Both the position numbers and the translations under genes were made by a program. Below the pieces are notes generated by a model. It saw only the letters and a list, made by a program, of their open reading frames with translations, did not search any database and was not told the origin of the DNA. Positions 49,632 to 63,972 of a stretch of 64,000 nt of DNA are shown here, in pieces (the stretch's first letter is position 1; every line of letters begins with the position of its first letter). This DNA comes from Arcobacter sp. FWKO B (GTDB lineage Bacteria > Campylobacterota > Campylobacteria > Campylobacterales > Arcobacteraceae): assembly GCF_014844135.1 (NCBI RefSeq), contig NZ_CP041403.1, positions 1,984,001 through 2,048,000 on the forward strand, written 5' to 3'.

Positions 49632-49702
49632 TTAAAATATTCTTACACAGTGGGGTAAAAAGTGGAGTAAGGTTTTTTATGATTTTTAAAACTTCGATGT
49701 AG

Positions 49703-49747
49703 TGGTGGGTCCAGAAGGACTCGAACCTTCGACCACTCGGTTATGAG
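49703..49747 (-). other. tRNA-Met(CAU)-like 3' fragment, left attachment site
   Basis: On the minus strand: anticodon loop CTCATAA, half stem CCGAG, variable loop, T arm GAAGG-TTCGAGT-CCTTC, acceptor TGGACCC, A, CCA. The 5' half is absent (upstream TCAAG cannot pair with CCGAG). This is what remains when an element integrates at the anticodon loop of a tRNA gene. Across the break, TTATGAG-CTTGA-CTCATAA (49741-49759) is a perfect 7-bp inverted repeat, fitting a tyrosine-recombinase core site. The intact tRNA should be at the right end of the element. From 49748 to 49896 nothing else is visible. Confidence 0.85.
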
Positions 49748-49896
49748 CTTGACTCATAAAAAATTCTATATTCCACAATATCACATAACATCACTCAAAG
49801 TACCGTAAAATAAGACTTGTATTGAAAGCGACTTTTTGCTATAATCTATAAATATTTCTATAAAATATAATATCAGGGTAGATATAGGGTAGAAAA

Positions 49897-50988
49897 ATGG
49901 AACGCTTTAAAACAAAATTTACTGGTGTATATTATCATCTTTTGCAAGACAATGAGAAAGTTTATTATATCACATACAAAGACTTACTTACAAATAAAAA
50001 AGTTTGGCTAAAAATTGGCAAATATTCAGAGGGAGTCAGAGAAGCTTACTGTAATCAAAAACGCAATGAAATAATTACTAAACTTAGACTTGGTGAAGAA
50101 CCACCAGTTGCTGCTAAAAATAAACAAAAGAAAATAAACTTTTTATCTGATATTGCTGAACAATATTTTGCACAAAGAAAAGATAATGAAACTACGAAAT
50201 CAGACATGGCAATTTTTGAACATTATATAAGTCCATATTTTAACGATATAGATTCAATTGATAGAAACTCACTTGATAAATGGAATAAATACTTACAAAC
50301 AGCTAAGCAAAAACACAATGACAAAAAAGACTTATCTATTAAATATCAAAATGATATAAAAGGACTTTTAGTATCTATTGGTAGATATGCACTTAAAAAT
50401 GACCTCACGAAAAATGACTACACAAAATACATTCAAAAAACTACTATTGACAATACTAGAGAAAAGTTTTTAACAAAAGAAGAAATCAAACAGCTTTATG
50501 ATTACTTTGAATATGAGCCTGAAAACTTACTCTTTGTTAAACTAGCACTTACAACAGGTGCAAGACTTATGAGTATTGTAAACCTACAAAAAAAAGATAT
50601 TGATTTAACACATAAGCTCATCACACTAAAAGACTACAAAAACAACTCTACATATAAAAACTTTTTAACAGATGAAGTCACAGAACTACTAAAAGATCAT
50701 ACTAAAACATTAAAGGCATCTGATAAGATATTTACAAGAAACCCACAAACAATTTTATTGAGTGTACTAGATAATCTTTTTAACAAAGGCTTATCAGCAG
50801 ATGATTCAAAAAATAGAGTGGTTATACATACACTAAGACATACTTTTGCTTCTCACTTAGCTATTAATGGAACTCCAATATATACTATTCAAAAACTTAT
50901 GAATCATAAAGATATAAAGATGACTTTGAGGTATGCAAAATTATCACCAGATAGTGGAAGAGAATCTATTTTGAATTTAGGTTTTTAA
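49897..50988 (+). CDS. int: Tyrosine-recombinase integrase
   Basis: 363 residues. N-terminal arm-binding region (~1-60), core-binding SAM-like domain (~85-175), catalytic domain with Arg in TTGARLMSIVNL (~225), Lys in TLKDYKN, HTLRHTFASHL (His/Arg ~310) and the final Tyr in TLRYAKLS (~347). It starts 150 bases from the tRNA fragment, pointing into the element, the usual place for an island or plasmid integrase. Confidence 0.93.
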   Translation: MERFKTKFTGVYYHLLQDNEKVYYITYKDLLTNKKVWLKIGKYSEGVREAYCNQKRNEIITKLRLGEEPPVAAKNKQKKINFLSDIAEQYFAQRKDNETTKSDMAIFEHYISPYFNDIDSIDRNSLDKWNKYLQTAKQKHNDKKDLSIKYQNDIKGLLVSIGRYALKNDLTKNDYTKYIQKTTIDNTREKFLTKEEIKQLYDYFEYEPENLLFVKLALTTGARLMSIVNLQKKDIDLTHKLITLKDYKNNSTYKNFLTDEVTELLKDHTKTLKASDKIFTRNPQTILLSVLDNLFNKGLSADDSKNRVVIHTLRHTFASHLAINGTPIYTIQKLMNHKDIKMTLRYAKLSPDSGRESILNLGF

Positions 50989-52048: not shown

Positions 52049-52945
52049 GTGAGTATTGTACCAAATTTACTTAAAAATAGCAATAGTTTGAGAGACTTTT
52101 TTGAAGAAAATATACATTTTAGAGTATTGCAAGTACAAAAAAATGATGGATACTTTGGGAAAGTCAAAAAAACTACAATTTCAAAAAATCCAAACAGATA
52201 TAATGGTATTCAAATCAACTGGAACGGATATACTAATGCACTAGCATTTGATTGCGATCATGATGATGTTTTGTTATACCAAGACCATAATCTACCACAA
52301 CCAACAATAACAACAATCAATGAAAAAAATGGAAGACATCACCATTTATATTTTTTGGAAAATCCAATACCACTTTTAGCGGATAGTAAAAAAGCAAAAG
52401 ATTTATTAGCCGACATAAAAAATGGACTAACAAAGACTTTACAAGCAGATGTAAATTACACAGGCTTTATTACAAAGAACTTTACAAATACTGATTATAG
52501 AGTGATAGGAAGCCTTGAAAAATATAAACTAGCAGACTTCACGGAATATACAGCAACAAATATCAAAAAAACTAAGCCAGATATACAAATAGAACAATCA
52601 GCTTTCAGTAGGCACTTAAATCTTTTTGATGAGATAAGATTCTACGGCTACACAATAGCCAAGAAGACAAGAAACAAGGATGAACTATACCTTAGTCTAT
52701 TTCATTATGCTGAGGGTGTTAATAAAGGCTATAATGAACCAATCGTTACAAAATATATAATTAAGAGCGTAACAGAGTTTTGCTGGACCAATAGACACAA
52801 CTTTAACGAAAATAAGTGGAATTGGGAAGGATACATAAAACAAGATAATGATACAAACTATAAAAGTAGAAGTGAAAGAGAAAAAGCAAGAAGAATGAAA
52901 GAAGCCCTAAAAAAGGGCATATTGGCTAACCTTAAAGATACCTAA
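52049..52945 (+). CDS. rep: Plasmid replication protein, AEP-primase-like
   Basis: 298 residues from GTG 52049. ALAFDCDHDD (~68-77) fits the metal-binding acidic motif and NGRHHHLYFL (~104) the histidine motif of archaeo-eukaryotic-type primases; this matches the plasmid Replicase family (ColE2-Rep-like), which primes at a specific origin. C-terminal basic helix (SRSEREKARRMKEALKK). Its 3' end lies inside the direct repeat. Indicates the element derives from a plasmid. Confidence 0.8.
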   Translation: MSIVPNLLKNSNSLRDFFEENIHFRVLQVQKNDGYFGKVKKTTISKNPNRYNGIQINWNGYTNALAFDCDHDDVLLYQDHNLPQPTITTINEKNGRHHHLYFLENPIPLLADSKKAKDLLADIKNGLTKTLQADVNYTGFITKNFTNTDYRVIGSLEKYKLADFTEYTATNIKKTKPDIQIEQSAFSRHLNLFDEIRFYGYTIAKKTRNKDELYLSLFHYAEGVNKGYNEPIVTKYIIKSVTEFCWTNRHNFNENKWNWEGYIKQDNDTNYKSRSEREKARRMKEALKKGILANLKDT

Positions 52946-53885: not shown

Positions 53886-56800
53886 ATGGTAAGTTTTCCT
53901 ACATGGGTGACGGCAAATGGAGCAGTCAATTATCTCGCAAAAGAAAGAGACAATTATTATCAGCAAGATGGCAGTCTTGGTGAGTGGCAAGGTAAGCTTG
54001 CTGAGGAATTAGGTTTCAAAACAGGATTAGTAAACGAAATAACAAAAGAGCAATTAGAAAATGCTCTTTGGGGCAAAGATGCAAAAGGGGAACAATTAGT
54101 AAATGCAAGACTTGATGCTGATGGTGATAGAAAACGAGCTGCTATTGACTTAACTTTCTCAGCTCCAAAAAGCGTATCTATAGCTTATGAATTGGCTAAA
54201 GCAAAGGGAAATCATGAGCTTGCAAATCAGATATTGTCAGTTCAAGAAAAATCAGTATCCATGGTACTTAGCAAAGTTGAAAACAATCTTCAAACTCGAA
54301 CTACTCTTGACGGTGAGACCTCAAAAGTTCAAAGTCAAGGTGCACTTATTGCAAAGTTTAACCATGAAGTAGCAAGACCTGTTACAGACAAAGATGGCAC
54401 AACATATGTAGATCCATCTTTGCACACTCATGCTATTGTAATGAATGTCGCTAAGCTTGAAAACGGTGAGCACAGAGCTATTGAAACTCAAAAAATATTT
54501 GATGGCTATATGGATTGGGGGCAACAATACAGAAGTGAATTTGCAGCAGGTTTGAAAGATATCGGATTTGAGCTGATGGTAACAGACCCAAAAAAAGGTT
54601 TTTACGAAATTGTTTTGGGCGATGTCGACACGACCGTAAAAGCAGTTGATGAGTACTCGAAACGAAGTGAGCAAATGGAAGAAAAAGTCGCTGAACTTAG
54701 AAAACAGTATCCAAATAAGAGCGAAAGTGAACTTAAGCAGTTAGCAGCTCACCAAAGTCGTGAGTGGAAAGGCGATATTGATAGAGATAAAGTTTTAAAA
54801 GATAATTTAGAAAGAGCTGAAAGTTTAGGTATAGATGTAAATAAGATTCTAACCACCTCAAAAGCAAATGCACTATCACCAGAGCAACAACTCGAAAAAG
54901 CTCAAATCGCACTTAATAACGCACTTCAAGCAATAACAGACTCAAAATCTGTATTCACAAAAGATAATATTCTATCGACAGCTGGAAAATTATCGTTAAA
55001 AGATGGAATTGGTTTGGAAATGCTTGAAAAAGCTATCTCACTTCAAGAAAAAGAAAAAGGCGACAATAAGCTTATAAATTTCAAAGAAGAACTATACACA
55101 ACAAAAGAGATTATCAATAAAGAAAGAGATCTACTAGACACGCTTCAAAGCGATAGAACTGTTAAAGCTGATATGTCAAAGACTTATGCAAGTCAAGAAG
55201 TTGACAGATACTCAAATTTAAAAGAAGATAAAACAGGTTTTGGTTTGACTGATGGGCAAAAAGACGCTGCAAAAGCAATTCTTAGTGATGATAAGCCGTT
55301 CGTTTTGATTCAAGGTGATGCAGGAACTGGTAAGACAACTATGTTAAAAGCAGTGAATGAGTTAAAAAACGATGATACAAAAATCATCGGTTTATCATAT
55401 ACTGGTAAAGCAGCAAGTGAAATCGAAAAAGCAACTCAGAAAGATAAAGAAGCTGATTCACAAAAAGTCAATTTATCTAAAGAAAGTTTTGAGCAGTCAG
55501 GCATAAAGTCATCAACGATTGCTTCGTTTCTTGGTGGCATTGAGAGAATGACTGATGAGGACAAATCAGAGTTTAAAAATTCTAAACTAATTATTGATGA
55601 AGCTTCTATGCTTGGACTCAAAGACGCTCACAAGCTAAATGAGTTCGCAAAAGAAACAGGTTCACAATTGGTTCTTATTGGTGATATTAAGCAGTTTGTA
55701 GCCATAAATGCAGGTTCACCTTTTCGATTATTGCAAGAGCACGGTGCAGAAGTTACGCAGATGAGCGAAGTATTAAGACAAGAAAAGTTCATTAAAGATG
55801 AACACGGCAAAGATACAAAAGAGATAAATCCTTTGTGGCAGTCAGTGCAGCATATCAATAAATTTGAAAGTGAAAAAACATTTGATGTTTTAGATAAAGC
55901 AGGAAAGATTGAAGTTGTATCTGATGGTTCTATGATCGAAAAAGCTAAAGAAAAATATCTTAATAGTAATGATATAAAAAACACTGAAATTATGACGCTC
56001 GACAAAGATATTTACAGAAATAATCTAATCTTAACAAATACGAACATAACAAAAGATGAGTTAAATTTTGAGATAAGAAGTGATCTACAGAAGATGAATA
56101 TCTTGTCACAAGATGACTTCAATATTAAAGTTAGAGAAAGTACACGACTATTACCTACAGATAGATATATAGCCGATAATTACCAAAAAGGTCATAGTTT
56201 GTTTTTGCAAGACAATATCGCAAATCTTAAAAAAGGAAGTGAGTTCGAGATTGTGGGAGTTAACAGCAAGAATAACACTCTTACTTTGTTGGATAAAGAA
56301 TCAAAATCGCACATCATCAATCTTGATACTTATGGAGCTAGCATTCAATCGTATGAAACAAAAGAAAAATCTTTTGCGATGGGCGAAAAAATCGTGTTTG
56401 AAAAAAACGATAAAAAGCTTGGTGTAAACAACGGTAACACTGCAATAATTCAAAACATTGACGATAAAGGAAACATTACAGCTTTACTTGAAGACAATAA
56501 AACTTTAACTTTTAATACAAAAGATTATAATTATTTTAATCATGGTTACGCAGTTACGAATTATAAAGCTCAAGGACAAACTACTCAAAATGTTATCGCA
56601 TTGATGGACTCAAAAGCACAAAATTTTAACTCTTTTTATGTTGGACTTACAAGAGCTCAAAAAGACATCTCTATACTAACAGATGATAAAGAGACTTTAA
56701 AAGATTTAATATCTGCAGAGCAAATTAAATCAAATTATCACACAAATGATAAAGATGAAAAGAAGTTTGAAGAGCAAAGAGAAAATATAAAAAATGCAAG

Positions 56801-58400
56801 AGTTGAAAGAGCAGTAATAAAACAAGAAGCAGAGAAAGAGAAAACTAAAGATGAGCAACAATCACAAAAGACAAGACCAGGTAGCTATAAATCAAATGAA
56901 ATAGTGCTTGATTATAAAACAACAAATCATGCACTTGCACAACTTGACAATGCTTTAAAGTCAAACAACACCAGAGAAGCTGCAAAAATATTTAATTCAG
57001 TAAAATCAAATTTGGATGATAATACTTTTGAAAGATACGAGAACAAAATCGATAAAATCGCACATCAAAAACAAAGAAGTAACTATACAAAAATTACAAA
57101 AGATGAAATCTTGGAGCTCTCAAAACAAACAGTTCAGGAGCTAAGAACGGAACATCCAGGAGCGGTACTTAACGCTTTGGGTATTGACTACAAAGAAAGT
57201 AGTAAAAGAATCACTTTCAAAATGGGTAGAGAGTTGACAAGTGCGAACATGTACATAGCAAAAGACGGTGACTGGAAATATCATCGTTTTTCAAGTGGTG
57301 CGAGTGGAAGCATTGAAACTGTTGTTATGGAACATTTAGGAACGAGCTATAAAGAAGCTTTAAATTTTGCGGTAAATGCTGCAGGTACAAAAGACCATGT
57401 AGCTGAAAGATTCGACGAAATCAAGAGAGAATCAGAGCCAAAAAAACCATTTGAAATAAAAGAAGAACATCAGAGAATTATCGAAGAAAAAAAACAAGCA
57501 AATAAAGAGTTAGCAAAAGAAAGCGACTCAAATTCAAAAGTTGTAAGCGTTAAAGAAATTACATCAGACGACAAACAAGCCATTGAATTTTTACAAAATC
57601 GTGGCATCAAAGAAGTACCTGAAAACTTCTATCGCATTACAGGCGAATTTACGGCTAGTAATGGAAATACATACAAAAACGAGGGTGTTGGTGTACTTAC
57701 AGGCAATATGAAAGATGTTGATTTGAACAATATCGACTTAGATAAAGTGGGAGCTGATATTCACTTGTTTAACAGAGTTGAACTTCGCGATGGTGGAACG
57801 CTTAAAACTCAATCTTTTGGAAACAAAGATATCACAATTATCAATGATAAAGATGATAACAGCAATGTTGCTATTTTTGAATCTAAAATGGATTACGCTG
57901 CTGCTGCTTCACAACATCCTGAAAAGTTTGAAGACACTACATCTATAATTGCGAATGGTACAGGAAACTATCACAAAGTCGCTGATGAACTTAGAGAAAA
58001 TCACGAAAATAAAGATGTTACATTCTATAATCAAAATGATGCTCCTGGAGAATTATTCGTTAAACAAGTCGCGGAAGAAGCAGAGTTAAAAGAGTTCAAT
58101 TATATCTCTTACGAGAAAGATGAAGAAAAGCAAGACATTAACGACTTAGTTAAAAACGATGTTGATTTAGAAGATAGAATCAAAGAAGACAGAACTATTG
58201 AAGATTTTGAAAAAGAAGCTATTGACAAAGAGCTTGATAAAGATGATATAAAATCATCTGATGAAGTTGAAAAAGATGATAAATCTGATTCAAAAGATGA
58301 TAGAACTAAAGATGATGAAAATGATAAATCTGATGATAAGTCAGATGATAAAGAAATTGAAAAAGAGCAACAAAAAGAAGAAATTGAGCATGAAAGATAA
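53886..58400 (+). CDS. traI: MobF relaxase-helicase with primase/Toprim-like C-terminus
   Basis: 1504 residues. N-terminal TrwC/TraI relaxase with Tyr pair (RDNYYQQDG, ~22-30), DLTFSAPKSVSI (~88) and the HUH-like LHTHAIVMN (~178). SF1 RecD-like helicase: Walker A GDAGTGKTT (~476), LIIDEASML (~568), KAQGQTTQNVI (~890), GLTRAQKDI (~919). From ~1085, HPGAVLNALGIDYK...WKYHRFSSGASGSIETVVMEHL resembles a zinc-less CHC2-like primase part, followed by a Toprim-like domain (VAIFESKMDYAAA, ~1340). Acidic repetitive tail (Asp/Lys-rich, from ~1430). Nicks oriT and unwinds DNA in conjugation; the added primase-like half would prime in the recipient (inference). Confidence 0.88.
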   Translation: MVSFPTWVTANGAVNYLAKERDNYYQQDGSLGEWQGKLAEELGFKTGLVNEITKEQLENALWGKDAKGEQLVNARLDADGDRKRAAIDLTFSAPKSVSIAYELAKAKGNHELANQILSVQEKSVSMVLSKVENNLQTRTTLDGETSKVQSQGALIAKFNHEVARPVTDKDGTTYVDPSLHTHAIVMNVAKLENGEHRAIETQKIFDGYMDWGQQYRSEFAAGLKDIGFELMVTDPKKGFYEIVLGDVDTTVKAVDEYSKRSEQMEEKVAELRKQYPNKSESELKQLAAHQSREWKGDIDRDKVLKDNLERAESLGIDVNKILTTSKANALSPEQQLEKAQIALNNALQAITDSKSVFTKDNILSTAGKLSLKDGIGLEMLEKAISLQEKEKGDNKLINFKEELYTTKEIINKERDLLDTLQSDRTVKADMSKTYASQEVDRYSNLKEDKTGFGLTDGQKDAAKAILSDDKPFVLIQGDAGTGKTTMLKAVNELKNDDTKIIGLSYTGKAASEIEKATQKDKEADSQKVNLSKESFEQSGIKSSTIASFLGGIERMTDEDKSEFKNSKLIIDEASMLGLKDAHKLNEFAKETGSQLVLIGDIKQFVAINAGSPFRLLQEHGAEVTQMSEVLRQEKFIKDEHGKDTKEINPLWQSVQHINKFESEKTFDVLDKAGKIEVVSDGSMIEKAKEKYLNSNDIKNTEIMTLDKDIYRNNLILTNTNITKDELNFEIRSDLQKMNILSQDDFNIKVRESTRLLPTDRYIADNYQKGHSLFLQDNIANLKKGSEFEIVGVNSKNNTLTLLDKESKSHIINLDTYGASIQSYETKEKSFAMGEKIVFEKNDKKLGVNNGNTAIIQNIDDKGNITALLEDNKTLTFNTKDYNYFNHGYAVTNYKAQGQTTQNVIALMDSKAQNFNSFYVGLTRAQKDISILTDDKETLKDLISAEQIKSNYHTNDKDEKKFEEQRENIKNARVERAVIKQEAEKEKTKDEQQSQKTRPGSYKSNEIVLDYKTTNHALAQLDNALKSNNTREAAKIFNSVKSNLDDNTFERYENKIDKIAHQKQRSNYTKITKDEILELSKQTVQELRTEHPGAVLNALGIDYKESSKRITFKMGRELTSANMYIAKDGDWKYHRFSSGASGSIETVVMEHLGTSYKEALNFAVNAAGTKDHVAERFDEIKRESEPKKPFEIKEEHQRIIEEKKQANKELAKESDSNSKVVSVKEITSDDKQAIEFLQNRGIKEVPENFYRITGEFTASNGNTYKNEGVGVLTGNMKDVDLNNIDLDKVGADIHLFNRVELRDGGTLKTQSFGNKDITIINDKDDNSNVAIFESKMDYAAAASQHPEKFEDTTSIIANGTGNYHKVADELRENHENKDVTFYNQNDAPGELFVKQVAEEAELKEFNYISYEKDEEKQDINDLVKNDVDLEDRIKEDRTIEDFEKEAIDKELDKDDIKSSDEVEKDDKSDSKDDRTKDDENDKSDDKSDDKEIEKEQQKEEIEHER

Positions 58401-61095: not shown

Positions 61096-61148
61096 TACTC
61101 AATCATCCCCCATTCTTCAAAATCAAAAAAATCTTCCTAAAAAATTTT

Positions 61149-61212
61149 CGCTCTGCGAAAGCAGAGTGAATCCGCTCTTGCAACGCTTGCGTTGCTCAAA
61201 ATTTTTTTTTGC
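61149..61212 (+). terminator. GAAA-loop hairpin and CTTG-loop terminator
   Basis: CTCTGC-GAAA-GCAGAG (61151-61166) followed by GCAACG-CTTG-CGTTGC (61180-61195) and a T-run. Both loops are extra-stable tetraloops. Ends the run of small genes. The rest of 61213-61340 is AT-rich with an A7/T7 hairpin near 61225 and no gene I can support. Confidence 0.65.
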
Positions 61213-61349
61213 TAAAAAACTGCTCACAAAAAAATTGCATTTTTTTGTTCGCGGAAATGAGCTCAAATTTTTTCTAGCTTGTTTTAGCTTTTTGTGTGTT
61301 TTAGCTTTTTTTGCACCGAAATTTTTTCTTTGCGAATTAATTTTTCCTG

Positions 61350-61450
61350 TATAATACTTAAACCCCTCTGATAGTTAGACACCATACGCAAGGTGTTGAC
61401 AGTAGGAGGAAATACCAGTCCTTGGGTGTTCTGTAGGCTTCTTTAAATGT
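61350..61450 (+). ncRNA. Possible small RNA before the phased array
   Basis: TATAAT at 61350-61355 would start an RNA near 61362. It contains ACACC-ATACGCAA-GGTGT (61379-61396) and further CCTTGG/GGGTGTTC pieces that could pair alternatively. No ORF is present. Could be a copy-control RNA or part of an oriT or origin. Weak evidence. Confidence 0.3.
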
Positions 61451-61508
61451 GATATTTTTTTGACTTTAAAGGGAAATGTGATTTTATCGCTATCCCAAAA
61501 AGTTAAAC

Positions 61509-61670
61509 TTCCTTTTTGTTCCTCTAATACTTCCTATTGCTTCCTTTTTATTCCACTAATACTTCCTATTGCTTCCCTAATATTCCTTTTTGTTCCCATT
61601 GCTTTCACTAATACTTCCAATAACTTCCTTTTTATTCCAATTGCTTCTTTTTGTACTTCCCTTTGCTTCC
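61509..61670. repeat. Array of 16 TTCC boxes phased at 10.5 bp
   Basis: TTCC-like boxes start at 61509, 519, 531, 541, 551, 563, 573, 583, 593, 603 (TTTC), 615, 625, 635, 645 (TTCT), 657 and 667. Intervals are 10 or 12, averaging 10.5, one DNA turn. The 12-base units are mostly TTCC(N)CTAATAC; the 10-base ones TTCCTTTTTA/G or TTCCTATTGC. All boxes face one side of the helix. It lies 50 bases before a small HTH-like gene and near parA, fitting a centromere-like or origin site. Confidence 0.85.
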
Positions 61671-61719: not shown

Positions 61720-62295
61720 ATGCATAAAAAAATTGAAGATTTTGTAGCAAAGCTTCAAAAAACAAAAAAGAAACAATCATCACTTGAAAAATTCATTGAT
61801 GATATTTTTTATTTGCGAGATAAAAAAGATTGCTCTTTTGAGCAAATTCAGTTGTATCTTTTTGAGGTTGGGAAAATACAAATTACAAGAAAAGCAGTTG
61901 GTAATTTCTACAATTTGAACAAAGAAAAGTATCAAAAGAAATCTAAAAATTTAGAGAATTTATCTTTTGATACTCCTAAAAAAGAAGAGCAAATACCAGT
62001 AAAAATTGAAAAAGAAAATTCAATTTTAGAAGATAAAAAAGATGTAATTGATAAAAAAAATAAAACAAAAAACGATATATTGTATCGCGAAAATGATATT
62101 GAAGTTATCCAAAATGATTCAACTTTAAGTGCAGATGAGAAGATAAAAAAACTTCAAAAGTATGTTGATAATTTAGAAAATCTTGAGCGTAAGAATATTC
62201 TACACTATAGTGAAATTCTAATAATAGACAAAGCAAAACCTGTAATCGAAAAATTAAAAGCACCTCATGTAACATATTACAAAGGTTCAAAATAA
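61720..62295 (+). CDS. Small HTH-like DNA-binding protein near parA
   Basis: 191 residues from ATG 61720 (AAGGAG 13 bases before); an upstream TTG-type start is less likely. CSFEQIQLYLFEVGKIQITRKAVGNFYNL (about 42-70) looks like a helix-turn-helix, with a lysine-rich charged remainder. Position between the phased array and parA suggests a partition or relaxosome accessory protein that binds the array. Not recognised by family. Confidence 0.6.
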   Translation: MHKKIEDFVAKLQKTKKKQSSLEKFIDDIFYLRDKKDCSFEQIQLYLFEVGKIQITRKAVGNFYNLNKEKYQKKSKNLENLSFDTPKKEEQIPVKIEKENSILEDKKDVIDKKNKTKNDILYRENDIEVIQNDSTLSADEKIKKLQKYVDNLENLERKNILHYSEILIIDKAKPVIEKLKAPHVTYYKGSK

Positions 62296-62381: not shown

Positions 62382-62540
62382 ATGAGAAAGTTTAAAATAA
62401 TGCCGAAAGTAAAACTGTATTTAGCTTGCTACAAACATGCTAAATTAATTCATAGTGAATTTGTTTATAACAAAGAGTCAGAGGTGAGCTACAAAGAGCA
62501 GCTCAAAAAATTTTTAATATTAAAAGGAGTTAAATTATGA
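62382..62540 (+). CDS. Small basic protein coupled to parA
   Basis: 52 residues, basic (MRKFKIMPKVKLYLACYKHA). Its TGA overlaps the parA ATG (ATGA). Ribosome site AAAGGAAAAC. Could be a DNA-binding helper of ParA; no family recognised. Confidence 0.55.
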   Translation: MRKFKIMPKVKLYLACYKHAKLIHSEFVYNKESEVSYKEQLKKFLILKGVKL

Positions 62541-63340
62541 TTCATGTAACTATTAGTACAAAGGGCGGTGTCGGTAAATCTACCGCAGCTCTTCAAGTTT
62601 TGTCAGCTTATGTATCAAATAAAAACCCAGACAAAAGATTAAATTTTGTGGAGATTGATGATGAAAATAGAAGCGTAGCTAAATTTAGTCAATCTAAAAT
62701 ACTAGAATTTGCTAGAGTCGTCAGCACAGAGTTTATTGAAGATTTTATTGACGACTCTGCTTTTGCTTCTGATGATATTGTAGTTGATGTGGGCGGAAAT
62801 AAAACAGCGACAATGTTTCTTCAAACTTTGTCTAAAAAAGGGGGTTTTTTGGATGAAGTAACTTATTATATTCCGATGATGGATGGAGACCAAGACGCTC
62901 AAAACGCCCAAGAAACATTTGAAATTATTAGACAATTTGATAAAAAGAATAAAATTGTCTATGTATTAAATAGATGTCAAAAAAAAGAAAATAAAGATTT
63001 GCTTGAGCGTCAATTTCTTTTTTACTTTGGTAACGATTCATTGGACATTCAACCAATTACAAAAGATGAAAAAACATTTGAAATTGGTATAAATTATGCT
63101 GATATCTACAAAGTTGCTGGCAAATTGCAAAAGTTAGTCTATGAGTTAGCTGATGAGGATCATCAAGAGGAATTTGAAACTTTAGCAAAACTTTATTGGG
63201 AAGACAAAAACAACAAAGAAGTCTACAAAAAAGTAAGAAAGATTCAAAAACTCAAAGATAGTGCAAGAGAAGCAAAAGAGCTAGTTCGTAATGAATATCT
63301 GGCTTTATTTAATTCCATCGATAAAATCTTGGAGGCATAA
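62537..63340 (+). CDS. parA: ParA/MinD-family ATPase
   Basis: 267 residues. Deviant Walker A KGGVGKSTAA (residues 9-18) is classic for ParA. Acidic Walker B region DDIVVDVGGNK (~78). The C-terminal half is longer and charged. No ParB is evident next to it; the small neighbours or the 61720 protein may replace it. Segregates or positions the element, or drives a conjugation-linked ATPase. Confidence 0.85.
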   Translation: MIHVTISTKGGVGKSTAALQVLSAYVSNKNPDKRLNFVEIDDENRSVAKFSQSKILEFARVVSTEFIEDFIDDSAFASDDIVVDVGGNKTATMFLQTLSKKGGFLDEVTYYIPMMDGDQDAQNAQETFEIIRQFDKKNKIVYVLNRCQKKENKDLLERQFLFYFGNDSLDIQPITKDEKTFEIGINYADIYKVAGKLQKLVYELADEDHQEEFETLAKLYWEDKNNKEVYKKVRKIQKLKDSAREAKELVRNEYLALFNSIDKILEA

Positions 63341-63673
63341 ATGAGCGATGATAAAGAAGTTGATAAATTACTGGTAGAAATAGGTACGGTGATTCCCCTA
63401 TTTCACATGGTGCTTAAGCAAAATAAAGAAATCATCGCTATTAATGAAAATTTGATGGATAGAATCGCAACACAAGATATTATCGAATCAAAAGAGTTTC
63501 ATTTTATTGAAGAAATGAGATTTGCTAAAATCATCAATCGTTCATTAATGTATGCTATTGTTACTGATCATCAAATGGTGTTAGATGTTATAGGTGCTGC
63601 AAAAGAGCAAAACGACAAAGAAGTCGTTGACTATTGGACTCTTAAATTAGAGTCCAATACCTCTAAATTTTAA
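63341..63673 (+). CDS. Helical hypothetical protein after parA
   Basis: 110 residues, all-helical, no motif recognised (VDKLLVEIGTVIPLFHMVLK; FHFIEEMRFAKIINRSLMYAI). Starts on the base after the parA stop, so co-transcribed. May be an adaptor of ParA. Confidence 0.6.
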   Translation: MSDDKEVDKLLVEIGTVIPLFHMVLKQNKEIIAINENLMDRIATQDIIESKEFHFIEEMRFAKIINRSLMYAIVTDHQMVLDVIGAAKEQNDKEVVDYWTLKLESNTSKF

Positions 63674-63684
63674 AGGGGTCAAAG

Positions 63685-63972
63685 ATGAAATTCGGTTTTT
63701 TTGGTGGAGCAATATTGCTCATTCTTACTTTAGTGTTCGCTAAACTCGCGATGGACACCGATAGAATGACAAAAGAAATAGTCGCAGATGCTTTTCAACT
63801 TGAAGAAAAACAAATTCAAAAAGAAGCAAAAACAAATCAAAATGTCGAACAACCTGTACAAGCTCATCAAAATGTTGAAGTTGTACAGCAAGTTCAAGTT
63901 CAAAAAGATGACAAATGGTCTGACTTTGATTCAAAATTTGACAAATTTGAAGAAAAATTCAAAAATTTCTAA
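63685..63972 (+). CDS. Membrane-anchored coiled-coil protein
   Basis: 95 residues: N-terminal hydrophobic helix (about 3-18), then a Gln/Lys/Val-rich coiled-coil stretch (NVEQPVQAHQNVEVVQQVQV) and an acidic-aromatic end (DFDSKFDKFEEKF). Ribosome site AAAGGGG. Unknown; conjugation apparatus or maintenance factor possible. Confidence 0.55.
   Translation: MKFGFFGGAILLILTLVFAKLAMDTDRMTKEIVADAFQLEEKQIQKEAKTNQNVEQPVQAHQNVEVVQQVQVQKDDKWSDFDSKFDKFEEKFKNF

Follow-up and report, generated by a model that had tools for sequence, protein, structure and literature searches.

The phased array of short TTCC boxes described here, next to a helix-turn-helix (HTH) gene and parA, is probably, judging from sequence comparison, an StbA-type binding platform at the transfer origin of an integrative mobilizable element, worked by a ParA-type ATPase. 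It lies in the window, by which we mean the whole stretch of 64 kb that was analyzed, which belongs to a complete chromosome of 2.24 Mb. The array and its immediate surroundings are listed below; the neighbors that an earlier note had named were right, with the HTH-protein gene starting at 61720 and parA at 62537.

61374–61400, minus strand: predicted MobF oriT core, AGACACCATACGC, identified by comparison
61507–61670, no strand: phased array of 16 boxes, consensus (t)nCTTCC, mean step 10.53 bp
61720–62295, plus strand: 191-aa protein with an N-terminal HTH, in an StbA-like position, proposed array binder
62382–62540, plus strand: 52-aa ORF between the HTH gene and parA
62537–63340, plus strand: ParA-superfamily ATPase, StbB-like, with a KGGVGKS Walker A and DVGGN replacing DxPP
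63341–63673, plus strand: 110-aa protein directly after parA, conserved in the G112 and G131 elements
63685–63972, plus strand: 95-aa protein with an N-terminal hydrophobic segment, conserved in the G125 and G131 elements

The span 61509–61670 contains 14 exact TTCC boxes (starting at 61509, 61519, 61531, 61541, 61551, 61563, 61573, 61583, 61593, 61615, 61625, 61635, 61657, and 61667) and two more with one mismatch, TTTC at 61603 (alternatively TTCA at 61604) and TTCT at 61645, which bears out the sixteen boxes counted before. Taking 61603 as the start, there are eleven steps of 10 and four of 12, which add up to 158 over the 15 intervals and average 10.53 bp, exactly as had been claimed; if the degenerate box is TTCA at 61604, two 11s replace one 10 and one 12. 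The boxes do fall on one face of the helix, as had been proposed, with a vector strength for the 16 positions of 0.95 at 10.5 bp compared to 0.25 at 10 and 0.31 at 11, so that the 12-bp steps appear to keep the helical phase; random steps of 9–13 bp give a mean best vector strength of 0.73 and a 95th percentile of 0.87. The extended box is approximately TTTnCTTCCnnTT, and a 32-bp repeat (10+10+12) makes up part of the array, which suggests that it has partly grown by phase-keeping duplication. TTCC-N6-TTCC occurs nine times in the array compared to 1.2 expected for the whole window, its 14 TTCC compare with a maximum of four (five GGAA) in any 160-bp stretch elsewhere, and its motif-chain score (10–12 bp steps) is 124 versus 63 in dinucleotide shuffles (z 14), with no shuffle coming close to it. 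No comparable array was found elsewhere within the window. A coding repeat was rejected, since steps of 10 and 12 break the reading frame.

The array forms part of an element of about 27 kb, integrated in tRNA-Met and bounded by 48-bp direct repeats, with these other features:

49701–49748, no strand: attachment repeat, left 48-bp copy
76653–76700 in window-equivalent numbering, outside the window: attachment repeat, right copy, in tRNA-Met
49897–50988, plus strand: tyrosine integrase, first gene of the element
52049–52945, plus strand: Replicase-family protein, about 9 kb from the array
53886–58400, plus strand: MobF (TrwC/TraI-type) relaxase-helicase
L002:6065–7948 and L002:12404–13654: two TrwB/TraD-type coupling proteins

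A search of the genome for a VirB4-type ATPase found none, and for this reason the element has the appearance of an integrative mobilizable element dependent on a helper; the two coupling proteins are present despite a genome with no detected VirB4. Relatives of one of the element proteins, where named, come from Campylobacterales, Nitratifractor, and Helicobacteraceae assemblies. An Rfam scan of 49–64 kb gave no match, and a sigma-70 scan found no promoters above chance. A 17-mer, ATCTTT(A/G)AATTGTGAAG, has six plus-strand copies, five exact and one with a mismatch (window 60091, 61673, 62313, and 63987; L002:8242 and 11087), each upstream of element genes and none elsewhere in the genome with one mismatch allowed. 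Four of them run into a small hairpin with covarying arms, and the 17-mer is possibly an element-wide operator or a leader RNA. Repeated N-terminal segments of the MSGNAM/MSGHNAM type were also seen in two proteins (L002:4620–6065 and L002:11731–12123).

About 120 bp upstream of the array, in the predicted oriT, we found AGACACCATACGCAAGGTGT. The core contains an inverted repeat (ACACC at 61379–61383, GGTGT at 61392–61396) and its bottom strand, CAACACCTTGCGTATGGTGTCTA, resembles GGTGCGTATTGTCTATAG of the R388 nic region (read in NC_028464). A single exact match in the window, versus 0.45 expected at two mismatches or fewer, is weak taken alone, so the prediction of the oriT rests on conservation and position. 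The core AGACACC(A/T)TACGC is exact and in the same place in the window element (G000), G112, and G125, while a related core followed by a short hairpin adjoins the arrays of most other elements, the hairpin and a GCGTAT-GGTGTCTA-like region (the predicted nic region) being conserved across elements. In G000, G112, and G125 it is the hairpin side of the predicted oriT that faces the array; in the others it is the nic side. Folded as a single strand, the DNA of the oriT region did not stand out (z 0.81). Several inverted repeats (TTTCGC..GCGAAA, AACGCTTGCGTT) occupy 61140–61240, within the AT-rich sequence that separates 61095 from the oriT core; they could be either terminator-like or part of the oriT.

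The putative binder, the 61720 protein, is preceded by AAGGAG 8 bp ahead of its ATG, and the N-terminal HTH is common to the members of its family. A model of residues 1–79 matches HTH DNA-binding domains (DeoR, SorC, and LsrR, with Z about 5.5); in a fold search with the full-length model the C-terminal helices dominate the matches. The HTH family shows weak similarity to StbA (hhalign 86%, P 4.7e-6, 63 columns, 8% identity), and StbA orthologues rank 1, 3, 4, and 6 among 504 ORFs in the comparison with this family. The absence of the StbA structure 7pc1 from the Foldseek list for the N-terminal domain decides nothing. We found no family for the protein in Pfam, NCBIfam, or PHROGs, no TraM-like family, no relatives in plasmids and viral contigs, and no meaningful match of the HTH profile to PDB sequences.

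The ATPase has 267 aa, starts with MIHVTISTKGGVGKS and carries no N-terminal HTH. Its family aligns with StbB over the full length (hhalign 98%, P 1.6e-13, 225 columns), within what is a broad superfamily, and both have D-x-G-(G/A) in place of D-x-P-P. This motif also occurs in chromosomal ParA-like proteins of Campylobacterota, which have 35% identity to the ATPase, a similarity at least as high as that to StbB, so its StbB membership is not proven. It is of the ParA/CbiA type and not an actin-like ParM as in type II ParMRC; its match to the VirC1 family was not significant, and no parA was found in viral contigs. A protein with a hydrophobic segment neighbors ParA in most elements. In the window element the 95-aa protein (63685) has one at its N-terminus, and the 110-aa protein (63341) has neither a clear transmembrane segment nor a recognizable DNA-binding domain. 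A recurring arrangement on chromosomes of the host's family places a ParA-like ATPase gene ahead of one for an 82–89-aa protein with a hydrophobic segment at its end, and a ubiE-like methyltransferase gene comes immediately after (L013:1486–2525, L018:1486–2542, L017, and L025). Four ParA proteins beside HTH genes look circularly permuted, with clean reading frames, an EIDDNN strand at the start and a KGGVGK(S/T) P-loop at the C-terminus (L060:10265–11026, plus; L084:6449–7195, plus; L095:11882–12637, minus; L096:12256–13014, minus); no ParA permuted in this way was found in the literature searched.

Searching 200 and 397 genomes for the relaxase brought up about 20 elements in which an HTH-ParA pair lies next to it or close by, and an array detector was run on their whole 13–34-kb segments. 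The search for arrays near related parA genes, which had been suggested as a check, gave a strong array (motif-chain score at least 1.6 times that of shuffles) beside the HTH-ParA module in 15 of 20 MobF elements, usually adjoining an oriT-like hairpin, and in most elements the top array of the segment is the one adjoining this module. Counterparts near related HTH/parA genes thus sustain the idea that the boxes form a putative protein-binding site on one helix face, connected with the HTH gene and parA. Only a minority of homologous elements are without the array, the finding that the earlier note had named as evidence to the contrary: two have no clear array (G086 and G163) and three a weak one (G125, G457, and G274a). 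G131, whose contig begins at parA, was left out of this judgement. The box word, number of boxes and mean step (bp) are as follows:

Window element: CTTCC, 16 boxes, 10.53
G112: TCAAGA, 18 boxes, 10.53
G046: TTGACA, 13 boxes, 10.17
G443: GTGAA, 13 boxes, 10.42
G378 and G481: GTAACC, 13 boxes, 10.50
G342, G361, and G322: GCAACC, 11 boxes, 10.40
G326: GCTCAC, 12 boxes, 10.27
G451: AGAACC, 10 boxes, 10.44
G391: TATTA, 9–10 boxes, about 10.4–10.6
G441: TTGAGA, 6–8 boxes, 10.7–11.0
G274b: GTCAAC, 8 boxes, 11.0
G069: TTGCAA, 14 boxes, 10.38

Across elements the mean steps stay within 10.2–11.0 bp and the words differ (TCAAGA, TTGACA, GTGAA, GYAACC, GCTCAC, or TTGCAA), each being well conserved within its own element (several columns are close to 2 bits). 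Most relatives switch between steps of 10 and 11 and so average near 10.5, which fits a model where the phase is constrained and not a whole-number step, and in a scan of step sizes (centers 7–17) the strong arrays peak at 10–11. The array is found directly upstream of the HTH gene in G000, G112, and G125, and in most other elements downstream of the HTH/ParA genes, between these and the oriT. In 20 ParA-like loci without a MobF relaxase, some of them with an HTH neighbor, no array was found near ParA, and their motif-chain scores are at most about 1.25 times those of shuffles, versus at least 1.6 in the 15 MobF elements. The difference is significant (Fisher p below 1e-5, even with one clade collapsed) in a sample that, being gathered via the relaxase, favors the transfer reading, and with array regions picked after inspection and trimmed by eye. 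Some control flanks reached z 6.8–7.7 from weak region-wide chains, so we required the score ratio of at least 1.6 and did not use z alone; the R388 stbDRs escaped the simple chain detector, a limit of the detector itself. At the control locus L110 (8278–12445 and 14560–14650), a 10-bp array was rejected as a simple perfect tandem repeat (GTAGAAAAAA) lying ahead of a type I restriction locus. L110 also contains, near this repeat, an HTH-ParA-coiled-coil module with an apparent MobP-type relaxase adjoining and no phased array. Overall, conserved phase and conserved place point to a functional site. Array-word similarity correlates with HTH identity (Mantel r 0.37, p 0.005, near-duplicates removed) and with relaxase identity (Mantel r 0.26, p 0.04); the word follows the former somewhat better, which is suggestive, not proof, of a pairing between word and HTH protein.

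The most likely scenario is that copies of the 61720 protein would bind the TTCC boxes on one face of the helix and form a row or filament adjoining the oriT hairpin. By analogy, this lining up of HTH proteins by the oriT would serve a ParA-type motor: the ATPase (62537) may engage the row and move or tether the complex, positioning the oriT/relaxosome at the nucleoid, membrane, or cell pole. The excised element could in this way reach the secretion channel of a helper, escape loss, or both, and binding over the upstream region of the operon would probably autoregulate it as well. We infer here which protein binds, that it contacts the ATPase, where the nic site lies, and that transfer or stability is affected.

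The parC-type centromere put forward in the earlier note was half right. The direct repeats are phased and precede a ParA operon, the ParA carries no N-terminal HTH, and the element has a Replicase-family gene of its own, all of which would suit a parS/parC-like site of a type Ib-like ParA, segregating the excised replicating form with no direct role in transfer. As a complete account, however, we consider it unlikely: the array lies beside the predicted MobF oriT and abuts the oriT in most elements, the 20 other ParA loci show none (although elements were collected via the relaxase), the gene of the putative binder is upstream of parA in the window element, the ATPase has D-G-G-N and not D-x-P-P, and the layout matches the oriT-stbDR-StbAB region of R388 (PMC3098194). 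Origin iterons, the other possibility raised at that time, would be bound by the Rep protein of the element, and direct repeats in a mobile element encoding a Replicase-family protein could suggest as much, but the Rep-like gene (52049–52945) is about 9 kb away from the array (61509) and not next to it, the spacing is one turn instead of about two (half the usual iteron length), and the arrays of the relatives adjoin HTH/ParA/oriT, which leaves this explanation with a negligible chance.

A multi-site operator, with the 61720 protein or another regulator controlling its own operon and nothing else, would agree with the position directly upstream of the HTH gene in G000, G112, and G125 and with the 17-bp leader common to six genes that follows the last box. 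It seems quite improbable, though, with most other elements carrying the array downstream of the HTH/ParA genes and with 8–18 phased boxes, more than simple repression needs. Still harder to believe is a purely architectural role, in which GC boxes and AT spacers at one turn would give bent or flexible DNA that aids oriT melting with no dedicated protein. In the window array, C-rich boxes and AT-rich spacers do alternate in phase with the helix, but bending alone does not predict a specific conserved word per element, near 2 bits at several columns, and some words are AT-rich (TATTA) and others not.

Our understanding of how the DNA-protein transfer complex reaches its secretion channel is still limited, and hints have repeatedly come from partition-like genes located at origins of transfer. 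ParM and ParR of R1 aid transfer, and VirC1 brings the relaxosome to the pole (PMC4949242). With the phase kept and the word changing, the arrays amount to a natural experiment that could show which protein recognizes the site and what makes helical phase important, and they point to transfer origins, predicted by comparison, in Campylobacterota integrative elements. A bolder view, which we regard as possible yet doubtful, is that the MobF elements of Campylobacterota might use a fast-diversifying one-face code in which the 10.5-bp phase and the number of boxes are selected, the word changes with its HTH reader, and every relaxosome is thereby directed to a ParA-type motor of its own, circularly permuted in some elements.

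In the VirC1/VirC2-overdrive system of the Agrobacterium Ti plasmid, a ParA/MinD-like ATPase and a DNA-binding protein act beside the nick site. The likeness lies in this pairing of a ParA-like ATPase with a DNA-binding protein at a site by the nick, although overdrive is not an array of the kind found here. TraM of F-like plasmids binds cooperatively to phased sites (sbm) between nic and its accessory gene, linking the oriT to the coupling protein, but its site includes no ParA-type ATPase. In parC-ParR-ParM of R1, one-turn iterons line up adaptor proteins on one helix face, with an ATPase that is actin-type and not ParA. Type Ib parC sites with ParA (pB171, TP228) are short-repeat arrays upstream of the ParA operon, with a small ParB gene downstream of ParA and no involvement of an oriT; the ATPase of the element shares with them the lack of an N-terminal HTH, but instead of a small ParB just downstream of parA there is the 191-aa HTH protein encoded upstream.

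The closest known system is the stbDRs-StbA-StbB-StbC region beside the oriT of the IncW plasmid R388 (PMC3098194; L100). There, StbA binds two sets of five 9-bp repeats, 2 bp apart, beside the oriT, and the oriT-stbDR-StbAB region has a role in both transfer and stability; without StbA transfer goes up 50-fold and the plasmid is destabilized, and without StbB transfer is abolished (PMC3098194). Both R388 and the element have a MobF relaxase and, between the oriT and the HTH gene, a series of direct repeats whose length is close to one turn (9 bp + 2 bp in R388); a ParA-superfamily ATPase comes next, and the HTH protein and the ATPase show profile similarity to StbA and StbB. The operon of the element is next to a MobF oriT, itself predicted, with the core (61377), the array, the HTH gene (61720), and parA (62537) contiguous, and the array at its start has a mean step of 10.53 bp compared to 11.04 bp in the R388 control, with a different word (TTGCATCAT in two sets of five in R388, 16 TTCC boxes in the element). 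Unlike R388, the element keeps a canonical KGGVGKS, is integrated and without a secretion channel, has the hairpin-to-array orientation reversed, and its third gene is not a clear StbC (coiled coil plus transmembrane segment), even if the hydrophobic-segment protein beside ParA in most elements is reminiscent of it. As homology to StbA, StbB, and StbC is in each case inconclusive, we do not file the module as a member of StbABC; going by the sequence features, the most fitting description is that of an StbA/stbDR-like array linked to the oriT, a variant of the R388-type arrangement.
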